Origin: Actinacidiphila epipremni
GTDB taxonomy: Bacteria > Actinomycetota > Actinomycetes > Streptomycetales > Streptomycetaceae
Reading direction: 5' to 3'
DNA length: 64,000 bases
Assembly (NCBI RefSeq): GCF_012034175.1
Contig: NZ_JAATEJ010000010.1
Location: 124,001-188,000, forward strand
Under the pieces are notes generated by a model. It was not told the DNA's origin, made no database searches, and saw only the letters and a list, made by a program, of their open reading frames with translations. A program made the position numbers and the translations under genes. Positions 16,583 through 23,095 of this stretch are shown piece after piece; position 1 is the stretch's first letter, and each line of letters starts with the position of its first letter.

Positions 16583-17455
16583 GTGGGCCAACCGGCCGCG
16601 CAGGGGCGGCAGTCGGACCGGCTGCCGCTGGTCGTGGTGATACCGACGAAGAACGAGGCGGAGAACATCGCGCGCACCGTCGCCTCGGTCGTCGACCATG
16701 TGCGGGCCGTCGTGGTCGTCGACTCGCACAGCACCGACGACACGTGCAAGATCGCCGCCGGGCTCGGCGCGGAGACCGTCGACTACACGTGGGACGGCCG
16801 CTACCCGAAGAAGAAGCAGTGGTGCCTGGACCATGTGCGCACCGACATCCCGTGGGTGCTCTTCCTCGACGGCGACGAGACGCCGAGCCCCCAACTCCTC
16901 GGCGAGCTGCGGGCGGTGTTCGCCGGCGGGCCGCCGTCGGTGGCCGCGTTCGACATCCCGCTCGGCTACTGGTTCGCCGGGCGGCGGCTTCGGCACGGCT
17001 ACACCATCGTCAAGCGCGCCCTGCTGGACCGCACCCGCTGCCGCTTCCCCGAGGTCGGCGACCTCGGCGCGCCGGGCATGGGCGAGCAGGAGGGCCACTA
17101 CCAGCCGGTCGCCGAATCCGCCGCCCGGCTGCGCTCCCCCATCGAGCACGAGGACCTGGACCCGGTGCGCACCTGGTTCGAGCGGCACAACCGCTACTCG
17201 GACTGGGAGGCGTGGCTGGAGCTCCACCCGGAGGTCAAGGAGCGCATCCGGCAGGTCAAGACCCGGCAGGGGCAGCTCTTCCACAAGGTGCCGTTCAAGC
17301 CGCTGGTGAGCTTCGGCTACGCGTACGTCTACAAGCGCGGCTTCCTCGACGGGCGGGCGGGGTTCGACTACGCGCTGGCGATGAGCTTCTACCGCTGGCA
17401 GATCGGGCTCAAGACCCGTGAACTGCGGCGGGACGGGGGTGCGTCCGGGCCATGA
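16583..17455 (+). CDS. Family 2 glycosyltransferase (WaaE/KdtX-like)
   Basis: A 290-residue GT-A enzyme. Key features are the N-terminal VVVIPTKNEAENIARTV, the nucleotide-sugar Asp in VVVDSHSTDDT, the metal-binding DGDE in LFLDGDETPS, and a C-terminal RHNRYSDWEAW segment seen in lipopolysaccharide-core-type glucosyltransferases. The acceptor is unknown but is presumably the lipid-linked repeat unit of this locus. The GTG start follows GGAGGAG and lies two bases after the preceding stop. Its 3' end overlaps the convergent glycosyltransferase gene by 47 bases. Confidence 0.9.
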   Translation: MGQPAAQGRQSDRLPLVVVIPTKNEAENIARTVASVVDHVRAVVVVDSHSTDDTCKIAAGLGAETVDYTWDGRYPKKKQWCLDHVRTDIPWVLFLDGDETPSPQLLGELRAVFAGGPPSVAAFDIPLGYWFAGRRLRHGYTIVKRALLDRTRCRFPEVGDLGAPGMGEQEGHYQPVAESAARLRSPIEHEDLDPVRTWFERHNRYSDWEAWLELHPEVKERIRQVKTRQGQLFHKVPFKPLVSFGYAYVYKRGFLDGRAGFDYALAMSFYRWQIGLKTRELRRDGGASGP

Positions 17456-18587
17456 CCTCGCCGTAGACGCCGAGCAGGGTGTCCACGACCGCGTCGATCG
17501 AGAAGCGGTCGTGGACCAACTGCCGTGCCGCCCGCGAGGCTTGCTCGTTGGCGTCGGGCTCCAGCAGTTCCAGCACCGCCTGGCCGACGAGCGGCCCGTT
17601 GTCGGCGTCCGGCAGGCTGTCGGTGACCCGCCCGGCGCCGGCCGCCGCGACGTCCGGCGAGAGCCCGCCGGTGCGGGCGACCACGACCGGCAGCCCCACC
17701 GACATCGCCTCCAGCACGGAGACGGCGAACGGCTCGACGACGGACGGCAGTACGTACACGTCCGCGCCCCGCAGCAGCGCCAGCACCTCGGCGTGCCCGA
17801 GCGGCCCCGGGCACTCCAGGGCGCCCGCGACGCCCAGTTCGGCGGCGAGCCGCCGCATGGGCCCGGTGAGCCCGCCGGTGTCGGGCCCGGCCAGCACGAA
17901 CCGGGCGTCCGGGTGCCGCGCCAGGACGGTGGGCATGGCCCGGACGAAGTCCTCCGGCCGCTTGCGCTTCTGTACCCGCGCGCAGTAGACGACGGTCGGC
18001 GGCCGGTCCCCGCGCGGCGGCCTGGGCTCCTGCACCTGCACGCCGTTGACCAGCCGCCGGAAGCTCCCCAGCGGCGTCCCCGGCACCACGGCCTGCACAC
18101 CGTCCCGCTCCATGGCCGTCAGGTGCAAGATCGCGTCCGCCCCCCGCAGCACCCGCTTCATCCCGAGCACGTCCACGGCCTTGGCGAACAGCTTCTCGGT
18201 CGGGTCGATCATCCCGTGCGTCTGCACGACCAGCGGCGTGCCCAACTCCCGCGCGATCAGCGCGAACGGCAGCGTGATCAGATCCCGCATGAGGTGCACA
18301 TGCACGACGTCGGCCCCCCGCACCATCCGCCGCGCCCGCGCGAGCAGCCCCGGCGAGGTGATCCCGCTGACCTCGAACGCCGGCAGCACATGCCGCGCCT
18401 GATGCACGAACGAGGGCACCCCCTCCACCTCGCTCGGCAACGGCCCGACGAACTTGTCCCCCAACGTCGCGATCCGCGCGTCGACCCCCCGCCGCCGAAG
18501 CCCCTTGCTGAGATTGAGCGCGACCCGCGTGGGCCCCCCGAAGTCATTGCTCGGCGTATGCAACGTCACCACATGCAAGACCCGCAC
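17409..18587 (-). CDS. Family 4 glycosyltransferase (GT-B fold)
   Basis: A 392-residue retaining glycosyltransferase. The N-terminal domain begins VRVLHVVTLHTPSNDFGGPT, whose GGP loop is typical of GT4. The C-terminal domain has PTVVYCARVQKRKRPEDFV, the donor-binding VYVLPSVVEPFAVSVLEAMS (E-x7-E motif) and GLPVVVARTGG. The GTG start has GGGGGAGG upstream; longer in-frame readings run into unrelated sequence. It is the last polysaccharide gene before the lasso block, 105 bases from the acetyltransferase stop. Confidence 0.9.
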   Translation of the reverse strand: MRVLHVVTLHTPSNDFGGPTRVALNLSKGLRRRGVDARIATLGDKFVGPLPSEVEGVPSFVHQARHVLPAFEVSGITSPGLLARARRMVRGADVVHVHLMRDLITLPFALIARELGTPLVVQTHGMIDPTEKLFAKAVDVLGMKRVLRGADAILHLTAMERDGVQAVVPGTPLGSFRRLVNGVQVQEPRPPRGDRPPTVVYCARVQKRKRPEDFVRAMPTVLARHPDARFVLAGPDTGGLTGPMRRLAAELGVAGALECPGPLGHAEVLALLRGADVYVLPSVVEPFAVSVLEAMSVGLPVVVARTGGLSPDVAAAGAGRVTDSLPDADNGPLVGQAVLELLEPDANEQASRAARQLVHDRFSIDAVVDTLLGVYGEVMARTHPRPAAVHGS

Positions 18588-18691
18588 GCAGCCTCCCCCT
18601 TCCCCCACGCCTGCCCCGCACACTACCCGCGCCCCGCCGCATCCGCGCCGCTTTGCGAGGATTGCGACGGCAGGGAGGGCGCGGGCGGAGG

Positions 18692-19258
18692 TCAACTTCC
18701 GATGGCGGCGGTCACGGCTGAAGGGCCGACGAAGTCCTCGGGCAGGGCGTCCATGAGGAGTTCGTCCACGGGCTGCCCGAGCCAGTATCCGGAGTTGCGC
18801 AGCCGGCCGGCGTCCCGGAATCCGGCCTTCCCGTAGGCGCGGACGGCCGCCCCGTTGGGTGCGAGCACCTTGAGCCACACCATGCGGACGGCCCCCAGGC
18901 GGAACGCCCAGTCGAGGGTCAGCCGGGTCGCCTCTGTCGCATAGCCCTTTCCGCGCTCCTCCGGAGCGATGAGCATGACGTACTCGCTGGTGCGTACGGC
19001 CTGGTCCACGTAGAGCACGGTCATGCCCACTGCCCGCATGTCCTCCCGGCGGACGACTTCGAAGGCGGTGCGCACGGGGCTGCCGGCCTGCCCCTGCCAG
19101 CCGGCCGAGCGGGTCTCCCAGGACTGCGGCATCTGGGTCCCGTACCCCAGCACTGTGCCGGGGTGGTTCTCCCACCGGTGGTAGGTGGGCAGCATGTCCT
19201 GACGGGGCAGGCTGAGGGCCAGGCGGTCACCGTCGAGCAGGATATGGGGCTCGCTCAC
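18692..19258 (-). CDS. GNAT acetyltransferase, probable lasso-peptide tailoring enzyme
   Basis: A 188-residue RimJ/RimL-type N-acetyltransferase. The acetyl-CoA loop is IAPEERGKGYATEA near residue 99, followed by the family helix and VLAPNGAAVRAYGKAGFRDAGR, the usual motif B. The GTG start overlaps the stop of the lasso protease gene in GTGA, so it is the last gene of the precursor-cyclase-protease operon. Acetyltransferases in this place are known from the albusnodin family, where one core Lys is acetylated. The predicted core here has a single Lys, K10. The substrate is inferred from context. Confidence 0.85.
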   Translation of the reverse strand: MSEPHILLDGDRLALSLPRQDMLPTYHRWENHPGTVLGYGTQMPQSWETRSAGWQGQAGSPVRTAFEVVRREDMRAVGMTVLYVDQAVRTSEYVMLIAPEERGKGYATEATRLTLDWAFRLGAVRMVWLKVLAPNGAAVRAYGKAGFRDAGRLRNSGYWLGQPVDELLMDALPEDFVGPSAVTAAIGS

Positions 19259-19875
19259 GGGGTGTGCTCCTCTCGTGGCCCGGGCGGTGCTCCCGGGCCG
19301 TCCGGTGTGCAGATCGGGGTGTAGAGACACGTCTCGTCCGGCTCCTCGACCGGCCGGCCCGCGGAATCGGCGATCCAGGCATGCAGGCGTATCGGGTCCG
19401 TGGCCATGCCGTGTCGCCATTCGGCTCGCCGCCCGGCGCATGCGAGCAGCAAGGCCGCGACCACCGACTGCTCCAGGCACCCCCACCGTGCGGGGACGAG
19501 GCGTGCGGCCCAACGCACAGCACGCACCGCGTGGACAGCCTGTTCGCGTGTGGCCGGTCGCCGGCACCGACCGTAGCAGCCCAGTTCCACGAGACGGGCG
19601 AATCGGCCCCGCCGCGGGCCGATGACGCGGACTCCCACGACGACGATCAGTACGGGAAGCGCGGCTGCCCGCCAGCGCGCGGGCGCGCTCCCGGCGGCGG
19701 GGAGGACGGCCAGGGTCTCGCTCGTGCCCCATGACGGCCCGCCGCGCACGTGGCGCAGGGTCGGGTGGGGTGCTGTCCGGCACGTTCCCGGTCGCAGCTC
19801 GATCCGGCCGGTCCGGTAGTCGACGGTGACCGAGGCGTTGTCCGTGAGCACGGTCACGACGGCACCGGCGTTCAC
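19255..19875 (-). CDS. Lasso peptide leader protease (B2, transglutaminase-like)
   Basis: A 206-residue protein with the lasso B2 fold signatures. The nucleophile Cys is in WGCLEQSVVAALL near residue 133, with HAWI (catalytic His) near residue 167 and an acidic GRPVEEPD loop after it. It cuts the leader from the precursor before ring closure. A hydrophobic segment, AALPVLIVVVGVRVIG, lies at about 72-87. The first 45 residues contain a beta-hairpin-like VTVDYRTGRIELR, recalling part of the RRE (B1) fold but too short for a full one. The GTG start overlaps the cyclase stop by four bases. Confidence 0.88.
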   Translation of the reverse strand: MNAGAVVTVLTDNASVTVDYRTGRIELRPGTCRTAPHPTLRHVRGGPSWGTSETLAVLPAAGSAPARWRAAALPVLIVVVGVRVIGPRRGRFARLVELGCYGRCRRPATREQAVHAVRAVRWAARLVPARWGCLEQSVVAALLLACAGRRAEWRHGMATDPIRLHAWIADSAGRPVEEPDETCLYTPICTPDGPGAPPGPREEHTP

Positions 19876-21554
19876 CGGGCCCTCGCAAGGTCGTGCCACC
19901 GGGGCGCCGCACTGTGCTCGACGGCGGCCAGCCACAACTCCGCGTTCAGAGCGGGCACCAGCATGGGCCAGGCGGTCTCGGCGCCGAGCGCCGCCGCGTG
20001 CAGTGCGGCCCGCAACGGTGCGGGCCGGACGAGGCCCAGGGCGGCGAGGCGTCCGTCCGCCAGGGCGAGGGCCCGCCGGAGATTGGCCCGCACGCCACGG
20101 TGGAACTCGCCGACGAACACGCCTTTGGTCACCCGCTCGCGGGTCATGGGGGGAAGCAAGGAACCCACGGCGGCGGTCAGGAGTGGTTTGTACCGCGTGG
20201 CAGAGCAGCGCCGCCACGGGGCCGCCGACAGGACCGCGTCGAGTACCGGCCCGTCCAGGAAGGGGTTGCGCAGTTCGATGCCGAAGGCTTCGGCGAGCTG
20301 CTGCTCGGTGTGTGCCGAGCGTGCCGTGTAGCGCACCTCCGCGAGCAGCAGTGCGTCGCAGGTCCCCAGGTGTGCTGGTGCGGCCGGCGGCTCGGGAGCG
20401 GCGGCGGGCACCCACGGCGGGCGCCGGCCCCCACCACCGATGAGCGCGTGGTGGTCGCCCCGGACGGCCGCGCGCACCAGACCCCATGGGCTTGCCCGGC
20501 GCAGCAGCGCCCACGCCTGCGCTTCCGCAGCGAGTCGCCCCCATCGCCGGGCGTGAGCGAGGTCGATCAGGTGGGTGGGGGGCGGCAGGAACAGCGAGTC
20601 CCCTCCGTCCCCGGTCAGATGGCAGACGACGCGGCTGTCGGCCAGCGCGAGCAGTTGGGCGGACAGTCGCGACCAGGTGACCGAGGAGGGAGCGGGTTCG
20701 TCGGTTGCCGGTAGCCGCGACGGCGCCTGGCTCAGGGGCGAATGGCGCTGCTCCAGGGGTAGGAGCATGTGGCGCAGGTTCGGCAGGGTGCCGGCGAGCG
20801 TCCGCGCGTAGGCGACATCACCGCCTTCGTCCACCGCGGCGGGGTGAACCGTCATCCCGAGTACGGGGCCGTGCTCCGCGGCAAGGACCGCGAGGGTGCT
20901 CGAATCCATGCCCGCCAGATCGCAGGACGTCGCCACGCCGGTCACCGCGGCCCGTACGCCTTCGCGCAGCGCCCCTCGCAGTGCCGCGGCGGCGTCGTCC
21001 CACGGCCGCGGCGCGGATGTCCACCACGGCGAGATCTGCATCTCGCCGTCGCGCAGCAGCATGCGATGCCCCGCCGGGACCATGCCGACACCCGACCACG
21101 CGCTGCGCCCCGCCGTGTCGCGGCGGCTGTCCGCCAGGTAGCCGGCCAGCCATGCGGTATCGACCAGTCCGCCGGTCAGACCGGACAGCGCCCGGGAGCT
21201 GGACCCCCACACGACTCCGCCCCGGTGAGCCACGGTGTAGACGGGACACGCGCCGGCCGCATCCGTCATGACTTCCACGGCGCCGTCGTCGAGCCGCCGG
21301 ACCAGGGTGAACGAGCCTCCCCATGCCCGAGTCGCCGCGGACAGGTCCCGGCTGTCCACCACCCGGGCGAGGTCGGCCGTGCCGGCCGCGCAGGGACCCA
21401 GGACGGCGAGTCGGGCAGTCCGGCCGCTCACCGTACGCAGCAGGCGGCCGGGCCAATGGCCCGCCGTCCACAGCGGAGGATCGCCCCAGATCACCCGGGC
21501 GCCCACGGGTACGACCGCTCGCGTGCCGGGCGAGCACCCACCGAACCAGTTCAC
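19872..21554 (-). CDS. Lasso cyclase (asparagine-synthetase homologue, C protein)
   Basis: A 560-residue protein related to asparagine synthetase B. It adenylates the ring acid (Asp/Glu) of the core and forms the amide with Gly1. The ATP-binding loop is CDLAGMDSSTLAVLA near residue 215, the form often seen in lasso cyclases. Other synthetase-like blocks are HLTGDGGDSLF near residue 318 and ELRNPFLDGPVLDAVL near residue 430. The N-terminal glutaminase-like domain starts MNWFGGC, with no Cys at position 2, so no glutamine hydrolysis is expected. GTG start with GGGGGAGG upstream. It lies 61 bases after the precursor gene. Confidence 0.92.
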   Translation of the reverse strand: MNWFGGCSPGTRAVVPVGARVIWGDPPLWTAGHWPGRLLRTVSGRTARLAVLGPCAAGTADLARVVDSRDLSAATRAWGGSFTLVRRLDDGAVEVMTDAAGACPVYTVAHRGGVVWGSSSRALSGLTGGLVDTAWLAGYLADSRRDTAGRSAWSGVGMVPAGHRMLLRDGEMQISPWWTSAPRPWDDAAAALRGALREGVRAAVTGVATSCDLAGMDSSTLAVLAAEHGPVLGMTVHPAAVDEGGDVAYARTLAGTLPNLRHMLLPLEQRHSPLSQAPSRLPATDEPAPSSVTWSRLSAQLLALADSRVVCHLTGDGGDSLFLPPPTHLIDLAHARRWGRLAAEAQAWALLRRASPWGLVRAAVRGDHHALIGGGGRRPPWVPAAAPEPPAAPAHLGTCDALLLAEVRYTARSAHTEQQLAEAFGIELRNPFLDGPVLDAVLSAAPWRRCSATRYKPLLTAAVGSLLPPMTRERVTKGVFVGEFHRGVRANLRRALALADGRLAALGLVRPAPLRAALHAAALGAETAWPMLVPALNAELWLAAVEHSAAPRWHDLARAR

Positions 21555-21577
21555 CGCGTGCCTCCCCCGGATGCGGT

Positions 21578-21604
21578 GGCGCTCCTCGGCGAAGAAGGAG
21601 CGCC
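21578..21604 (-). terminator. Intercistronic hairpin between precursor and cyclase genes
   Basis: Nine-base arms (21578-21586 and 21596-21604) with a nine-base loop lie in the 61-base gap between the precursor stop and the cyclase start. A hairpin here would lower read-through and protect the precursor message, giving more precursor than enzyme. No T-run follows, so partial termination or mRNA protection is more likely than a full stop. Confidence 0.55.
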
Positions 21605-21615
21605 GCCCGTCGTCG

Positions 21616-21765
21616 TCAGCCGTACTGGTACCGCTTGTCCTCGGTGCTGCTGCCCTGCCCGCCCTTCGTCAGCGTGGCGGCGTCGCCCAGGACGATCACC
21701 CGGGGCGAGACCAGGGGGTCCTCGTCGTCCGTCCCGCCCGGCACCGGGCCCGGTCGCTGTTCCAT
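21616..21765 (-). CDS. Lasso peptide precursor (albusnodin-like)
   Basis: A 49-residue precursor, with AGGAGG seven bases before the ATG. Its C-terminal leader segment LVSPRVIVLGDAATLTK fits the actinobacterial lasso leader pattern P-x-hydrophobic, Gly, then Thr at position -2. The predicted core is the last 15 residues, GGQGSSTEDKRYQYG: Gly1 for the ring amine, Glu8 or Asp9 as ring acid, Lys10 as possible acetylation site, and Tyr12/Tyr14 as bulky plugs. It is the first gene of the operon with cyclase, protease and acetyltransferase. The call rests on gene context and leader pattern; the exact ring size is open. Confidence 0.9.
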   Translation of the reverse strand: MEQRPGPVPGGTDDEDPLVSPRVIVLGDAATLTKGGQGSSTEDKRYQYG

Positions 21766-21982: not shown

Positions 21983-23095
21983 ATGGCCGGGCAAGCGCCG
22001 CACGGACGCAGCCGCACCTCGAACGGTGCCGTCGCCGGGTACGTCCTGCGGCTGGCCCGCGAGAGCATCCCGGCTGTGCAGAGTTCGTTCGCCGAGGCGC
22101 TGGGCCTGGACCTCGCCACCGTGCAGGGATGGGAGTCCGGCAGAAGACCCCTGGCCAACATGAAGGCGGGGGCACTGCTCGCCTTGAAGCGGCGGCTTCC
22201 GCACCTCGGCGCCGACCAGCGCTTGGTGGGGCTGCTCGACGCCGCCCTGGACGCGGACCGGATCATCGGCGCCGCCCTCGATCCCCGGGACCGGATCGGT
22301 GAGCACCCACTGGCGGGGTGGGTGCACAACCGCCAGACGGCGCACATGATCGCGTGGGCGGTGAACGGAACCGCCCCGCCGGCCATCGGTGCCCGGGAGG
22401 TCCGAGGCCGCCGAGGACCCGTGCCGGCCGCCCCGCTTCTGCCGCCGGGCGAGCGGATGCAGCTCTTCGACCACCTCCGCGCCATGGCCGAGGTCGCTTC
22501 GGCCGCCGACGGTGGCGGCATGCTCCTGCGTCGCCAGTCCCTGTATCTCGCAAGCTACGACCAGGGTGCCGACGCCCCTGCCTGGACCACACACACGCTG
22601 CGCTCACGCCGGGATGTGCTGTCCGTACGCGGCTGGTCCGAGCACTGGTCCGAGGCCCGGTCCACGGCAACTGCCCTTGCCCGTATGGGAGATCCCCAGC
22701 CGCTTCGCGACTTCATCGGCCGGTCGATGGCCGGCGACGACAGGGGGGAGGCGGCGAACCTGAACTACTGGGCCTATTGGCTCGGCGCGATGCCTTCCCA
22801 GACCGAGCCGGACGATTCGTTCATGGCTGATCGCCATCTGGCCGGCTTCGACCCCGTCACGCTCATGCGCCGCCTCGCGCAGGGGATGGCCGAAGCCCCG
22901 ACCTATGTGGATTTGTACGCGCACTCCGTGTGGGTGCTGCTGTTCGCCCGCCCGTGGCTGCCTCTGGCGGATCCTGCCGTCGCCGCTCGGCTCGGGCGGC
23001 AGGTCATCCATGCGCTCGAAGCGCAGCAGGTGTCGGCGCAAACGCGTCGCGACCTCGGGGCAGTGCAATACCTTCTTACCGAGCACCGCGTCTGA
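21983..23095 (+). CDS. XRE-type helix-turn-helix transcriptional regulator
   Basis: A 370-residue regulator. An N-terminal helix-turn-helix covers about residues 18-60 (LARESIPAVQSSFAEALGLD then LATVQGWESGRRPLAN). A helical domain of some 300 residues follows, similar in character to the repeat-containing sensor part of Streptomyces XRE regulators. It is transcribed away from the lasso operon and 17 bases before an HD-domain gene. It could control the lasso operon, the HD gene, or both. The ATG has GGAG six bases upstream. Confidence 0.82.
   Translation: MAGQAPHGRSRTSNGAVAGYVLRLARESIPAVQSSFAEALGLDLATVQGWESGRRPLANMKAGALLALKRRLPHLGADQRLVGLLDAALDADRIIGAALDPRDRIGEHPLAGWVHNRQTAHMIAWAVNGTAPPAIGAREVRGRRGPVPAAPLLPPGERMQLFDHLRAMAEVASAADGGGMLLRRQSLYLASYDQGADAPAWTTHTLRSRRDVLSVRGWSEHWSEARSTATALARMGDPQPLRDFIGRSMAGDDRGEAANLNYWAYWLGAMPSQTEPDDSFMADRHLAGFDPVTLMRRLAQGMAEAPTYVDLYAHSVWVLLFARPWLPLADPAVAARLGRQVIHALEAQQVSAQTRRDLGAVQYLLTEHRV

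Follow-up and report, generated by a model that had tools for sequence, protein, structure and literature searches.

The 64,000-nucleotide stretch of Actinacidiphila epipremni DNA analyzed here (the window) carries a four-gene minus-strand operon that we read as a self-contained A-C-B-T module for a lasso peptide acetylated at Lys10, in which acetylation would serve chiefly as self-protection; we put the probability of this reading at roughly 70%. The evidence supports placing the cluster as a new member in an already known family of lasso peptides, that of albusnodin; its exact product is undescribed in the open-access papers searched. The operon is known here from its genes, and its product, acetylation, activity, and expression are predictions. 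What the evidence points to is the role of the acetyltransferase and the reduced leader-binding domain rather than the product, and the added interest would lie at the level of the family, in what acetylation does and in a leader-recognition domain that has repeatedly been reduced.

The window operon and its family

An earlier note on this DNA had placed four open reading frames on the minus strand, and its positions proved exact to the base. The features of the operon are as follows.

21616-21765, minus strand: precursor gene A, 49 aa, ATG start, with GGAGAGGAGG before the start
21664-21765, minus strand: leader of A, MEQRPGPVPGGTDDEDPLVSPRVIVLGDAATLTK, 34 aa, from a pattern compared with relatives
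21619-21663, minus strand: predicted core of A, GGQGSSTEDKRYQYG, 15 aa, from conserved positions across family cores
21616-21618, minus strand: stop codon of A
19872-21554, minus strand: cyclase gene C, 560 aa, GTG start, NF033561 (598 bits)
19872-19875, minus strand: GTGA overlap of the C stop and the B start
19255-19875, minus strand: B protein gene, 206 aa, GTG start, NF033537 (79 bits), alignment, and AlphaFold2 model
19255-19258, minus strand: GTGA overlap of the B stop and the T start
18692-19258, minus strand: GNAT acetyltransferase gene T, 188 aa, GTG start, PF13302 (E value 5.8e-14) and family alignment

The genes thus run in the order A-C-B-T over positions 18692-21765, with a gap of 61 bp between A and C and, as the earlier note had also said, GTGA overlaps joining the last three. 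A lasso-family match for cyclase and protease was looked for with curated NCBIfam models and found in both cases: the cyclase scored far above the 300-bit cut-off of NF033561, the albusnodin/ikarugamycin-family cyclase model, and B above the 33-bit cut-off of NF033537, the lasso B2 model. The cyclase also matched PF00733 (8.9e-23) and B also matched PF13471. Precursor A reached 35.2 bits against the albusnodin-family precursor model NF033525 (cut-off, 30), so that curated models of precursor and cyclase both bear out the earlier assignment to an albusnodin-type cluster with an acetyltransferase gene. Because these scores exceed their cut-offs and the A-C-B-T order recurs in dozens of actinobacterial genomes, the operon is not a chance arrangement. 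A promoter and terminator scan gave no match.

Relatives were drawn from one scan of GTDB genomes and from a sample of 396 genomes belonging to the window's family, of which 24 carried a precursor; together these gave ~90 non-redundant related cyclases. In the cyclase tree, the window sequence pairs with that of Streptomyces celluloflavus within a clade of 26, separate from the albusnodin clade. The S. celluloflavus NRRL B-2493 cluster (L049), known from its genes alone, has the core GGSGTSTEDKRYQYG, which differs from the window core at 2 of 15 positions; its cyclase, B, and GNAT are 63%, 65%, and 74% identical to those of the window, and the RRE is reduced in both; no homology was found between the flanking regions. 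Albusnodin of Streptomyces albus DSM 41398 (albA-C-B-T; GQGGGQSEDKRRAYNC) resembles the window in gene order, precursor and cyclase family, and GNAT. Its core has Glu8, Lys10, Arg11, and Tyr14 in register with those of the window, but most other positions differ, and the reduced RRE and shortened PP-loop described below are features of the window.

Predicted product

As in lasso precursors generally, Thr stands at -2 in the window precursor, the core opens with Gly1, and Asp/Glu falls within positions 7 to 9 (LTK followed by GGQGSSTED). Two marks of the albusnodin family are present as well, a GNAT gene in the same operon and a Lys as the tenth core residue. The precursor's leader carries the lasso pattern P-x-V-x3-G-x5-T-x-G, with Leu in place of the Tyr of YxxP. 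Across ~60 distinct family cores, Lys10 and Tyr14 are invariant and position 8 is Glu (rarely Asp), while position 9 may be D, S, N, G, or A; on account of this variability Asp9 was rejected as the ring acceptor. From the invariance of Glu/Asp8 and of Lys10, the latter being the residue acetylated in albusnodin, we expect the ring to close between Gly1 and Glu8 and acetylation to fall on Lys10. The predicted product is therefore GGQGSSTEDKRYQYG with a Gly1-Glu8 ring and acetylated Lys10, at [M+H]+ 1656.725; by analogy with the albusnodin family, the peptide would indeed be acetylated. We infer the ring residue, the acetylation site, the threading, and the toxicity of the unacetylated peptide alike. 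No second copy of the exact core turned up among the other clusters examined or in the open papers searched, and, taken as a prediction, the suggestion in the earlier note of an acetylated member that had not been described is reasonable. Cores of a Promicromonosporaceae group are one residue longer ahead of Glu. One cluster, L115, was tallied automatically as having an E-x-K core, but with its TADMK it belongs to another type of core.

In the pathway that we propose, the residual beta-sheet of B's RRE would bind the precursor, and the cysteine protease of B would cleave after Lys34, with Thr at -2. The cyclase would then link the Gly1 amino group to the Glu8 side chain around the threaded tail, and the GNAT would acetylate Lys10, adjoining the ring, either before or after threading. 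The peptide would most likely be antagonistic or growth-inhibiting, and Lys10 acetylation would chiefly protect the producer itself.

Reduced motifs in the B protein and the cyclase

The earlier label of B as a B2 protease suits its C-terminal domain, a B2 cysteine protease spanning residues ~66-190 in which Cys133 and His165 are invariant in the alignment. It does not suit the N-terminal 65 residues, which appear to be a remnant of a fused B1/RRE domain; residues 1-30 form a reduced RRE of three strands and no helices. In the AlphaFold2 model (pLDDT, 87.6), these strands lie at residues 6-10, 14-19, and 25-29, followed by coil to residue 66 except for a three-residue strand at 39-41. In family members with a full-length B protein, 59-79 residues separate the DYRTG hairpin from the SWGT motif, compared with 28-33 in the window clade, 38 in a sister clade, and 23-24 in some of the clusters whose core is exactly that of albusnodin. 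Between full and reduced RREs, parsimony counts six changes on the cyclase tree, to be read as five to six because this is a quick tree with open forks; on this tree, RRE reduction has recurred in several lineages.

Pfam PqqD did not match the B proteins, but it also misses full-length fused RREs, so that the missing match proves nothing and structure models were needed. The model of one full-length B protein (L095) has both strands and helices, and its best PDB match was TbiB1 with bound leader, at a probability of 0.97 and with an E value of 0.19 that makes the match weak in itself. A Foldseek search of the PDB with the window B gave nothing usable and no TbiB1 match, and the flanks of relatives hold no conserved separate B1/RRE gene. 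In solved complexes, the Y/W and P of the leader occupy a cleft formed with helices, and the residues that follow extend the sheet (PMC13381572). The window leader retains the P-x-V strand, and the bare three-stranded sheet may still bind it. If the reduced RRE works, it would offer lasso engineering a minimal element for binding leaders.

The ATP PP-loop of the window cyclase is one residue short (LAG-MDSS instead of LSGGLDSS). The same deletion (AG-xDS for SGGxDS) occurs in 24 of 24 readable cyclases of the window clade and in 0 of 59 others. It is possible to see in the truncated RRE and this deletion in an ATP motif a decaying or silent cluster whose B and C are inactive. We regard this as the least probable of the alternatives considered here, since both features are common to the whole 26-member clade, which spans Streptomyces and Nocardiopsis and has intact frames in nearly all members, and since the catalytic Cys and His and the HLTGDGGD motif are retained.

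The acetyltransferase and the role of acetylation

Albusnodin is acetylated at Lys10, and the reason has been in question since 2018, with a folding aid and self-resistance as the two proposals (PMC8498205). In the triculamin and lariocidin clusters, which like the window combine a lasso peptide with a GNAT, lysine acetylation gives self-resistance (PMC13352647). In the lariocidin cluster, B1 and B2 are encoded separately and an ABC transporter is present (PMC11451635), whereas the window operon has no ABC transporter.

The GNAT, whose acetyl-CoA loop reads RGKGYA in the window, was present in all 72 assessable complete clusters with an E-x-K core, and no complete A-C-B cluster lacking it was seen among assessable clusters. 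Related cyclases without a GNAT have other cores and form a single outgroup, so they are not independent cases. Such constant presence fits acetylation as an obligatory maturation step, in which B and C could fold and close the linear precursor only once the GNAT has modified it, and self-protection would not come into it. Albusnodin is lost when albT is deleted, and its unacetylated intermediate was not observed (PMC9266682, PMC8498205), an absence that fits this explanation too. We nevertheless consider it unlikely, as a purely biosynthetic role leaves unexplained the purifying selection on GNATs whose A, C, and B genes are gone.

Of the 66 strong GNAT matches among the 396 genomes, 25 adjoin an albusnodin-type cyclase and the other 41 lie elsewhere. 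More than half of the latter (24 of 41) are single copies in genomes of the window's genus (24 of 35 genomes), are ~50% identical to the lasso GNAT, and branch from a long stem of 1.21 changes per column; their function may differ. Orphan loci were taken from tblastn coordinates, and the orphans that tell most have 79-92% identity to cluster GNATs. At L203 and L204, both flanks are syntenic with the intact cluster L130, and a deletion runs from upstream of A through B except for a scar of its last ~9 codons, leaving the GNAT intact. Four further loci (L188, L193, L201, and L202) keep only C-terminal pieces of B beside an intact GNAT, that of L193 being more divergent, and L200 has a truncated cyclase beside an intact GNAT. 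That orphan GNATs pre-date the clusters was rejected for L203/L204 and the remnant loci, because ends of B are still present there. GNATs without clusters also emerge at several points inside the tree of cluster GNATs.

Orphan GNAT pairs that share flanks are under purifying selection. The L203 and L204 genes differ by 13 nonsynonymous and 20 synonymous changes (P = 8e-5 against neutrality), and L186/L190 (P = 2e-11) and L205/L011 (P = 2e-11) are likewise constrained; dN/dS is 0.09-0.28 for orphan GNATs and 0.12-0.21 for cluster GNATs. A gene serving biosynthesis only should decay with its cluster, whereas a protective gene should not, and the survival of the GNAT where A, C, and B have been lost thus gives the strongest argument, though an indirect one, for self-protection, with which an additional role of acetylation in folding would be compatible. 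Orphan GNATs may, on the other hand, have other substrates, and for the conjugation failure of Sven-LP other explanations were offered by its authors. No antimicrobial activity of albusnodin or the window peptide was reported in the literature searched.

The enzyme might also be a general protein or small-molecule acetyltransferase of the RimJ/RimL or spermidine type, in the operon by chance and not acting on Lys10. Weak matches of the window GNAT to spermidine and RimI-type acetyltransferases and the orphan copies in cluster-free genomes are in line with this. The gene's translational coupling with B, its occurrence in every complete cluster with the invariant Lys10, and the demonstrated acetylation of Lys10 in albusnodin (PMC9266682) make it very improbable.

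Self-protection remains our preferred reading, and the scarred loci with intact GNATs amount to a natural experiment on why albusnodin is acetylated (PMC8498205). A bolder version, which we hold only tentatively and at somewhat less than even odds, is that the GNAT confers immunity and has spread further than the antibiotic-like peptide that it disarms. Producers would then make the acetylated form, which is safe for themselves, and non-producers would keep the GNAT for protection, while the RRE would repeatedly have been cut down to a three-stranded sheet that still guides processing.

Genomic surroundings and distribution

The following genes, unrelated to the window operon, lie on its two sides.

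16583-18590: glycosyltransferases, flanking the operon
21983: divergent gene, family unassigned
23118: HD-domain protein gene
23719: CDP-alcohol phosphatidyltransferase gene
24404: cytidylyltransferase gene

For nine flanking genes tested, no homologue was found beside the cluster of any relative, and the divergent gene at 21983 was for this reason rejected as a member of the module. There is no transporter, ABC type included, in the window operon, and none is conserved in the flanks of relatives; the only conserved extra gene is an XRE-type regulator group common upstream of relatives' clusters. Complete A-C-B-T modules are also plasmid-borne in Pseudonocardia and Amycolatopsis, which, together with the unshared flanks, indicates that the module is confined to its four genes and includes no transporter.

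Elsewhere in the window's genome there is another albusnodin cluster, near-canonical (G000:C25:420659-423934; L007, L013), with the core GQGSGRSEDKRRAYNS and a full RRE, and a third, lone GNAT (L011:2412-2942; G000:C23), which is one of the 24 long-stemmed GNATs of the genus. In Sinosporangium album (L087:4238-5808), fragments of cyclase and B are nearly identical to those of a Streptomyces clade, which may reflect transfer or contamination; neither precursor nor GNAT was found on that contig. In a metagenome-assembled genome (L081:5929-7941), the cyclase is apparently fused in frame with the GNAT and B is missing, possibly through an assembly fault. In one genome, clusters L144 and L145 (G168:C1) lie ~16 kb apart; they are close relatives whose cores differ slightly. 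The cluster of Nocardiopsis kunsanensis (L059:8198-9440) has two different GNAT genes in tandem. Finally, in a Pseudonocardia from the ant Apterostigma, a mobilizable plasmid carries an albusnodin-type cluster that is complete (L151:2145-5552).
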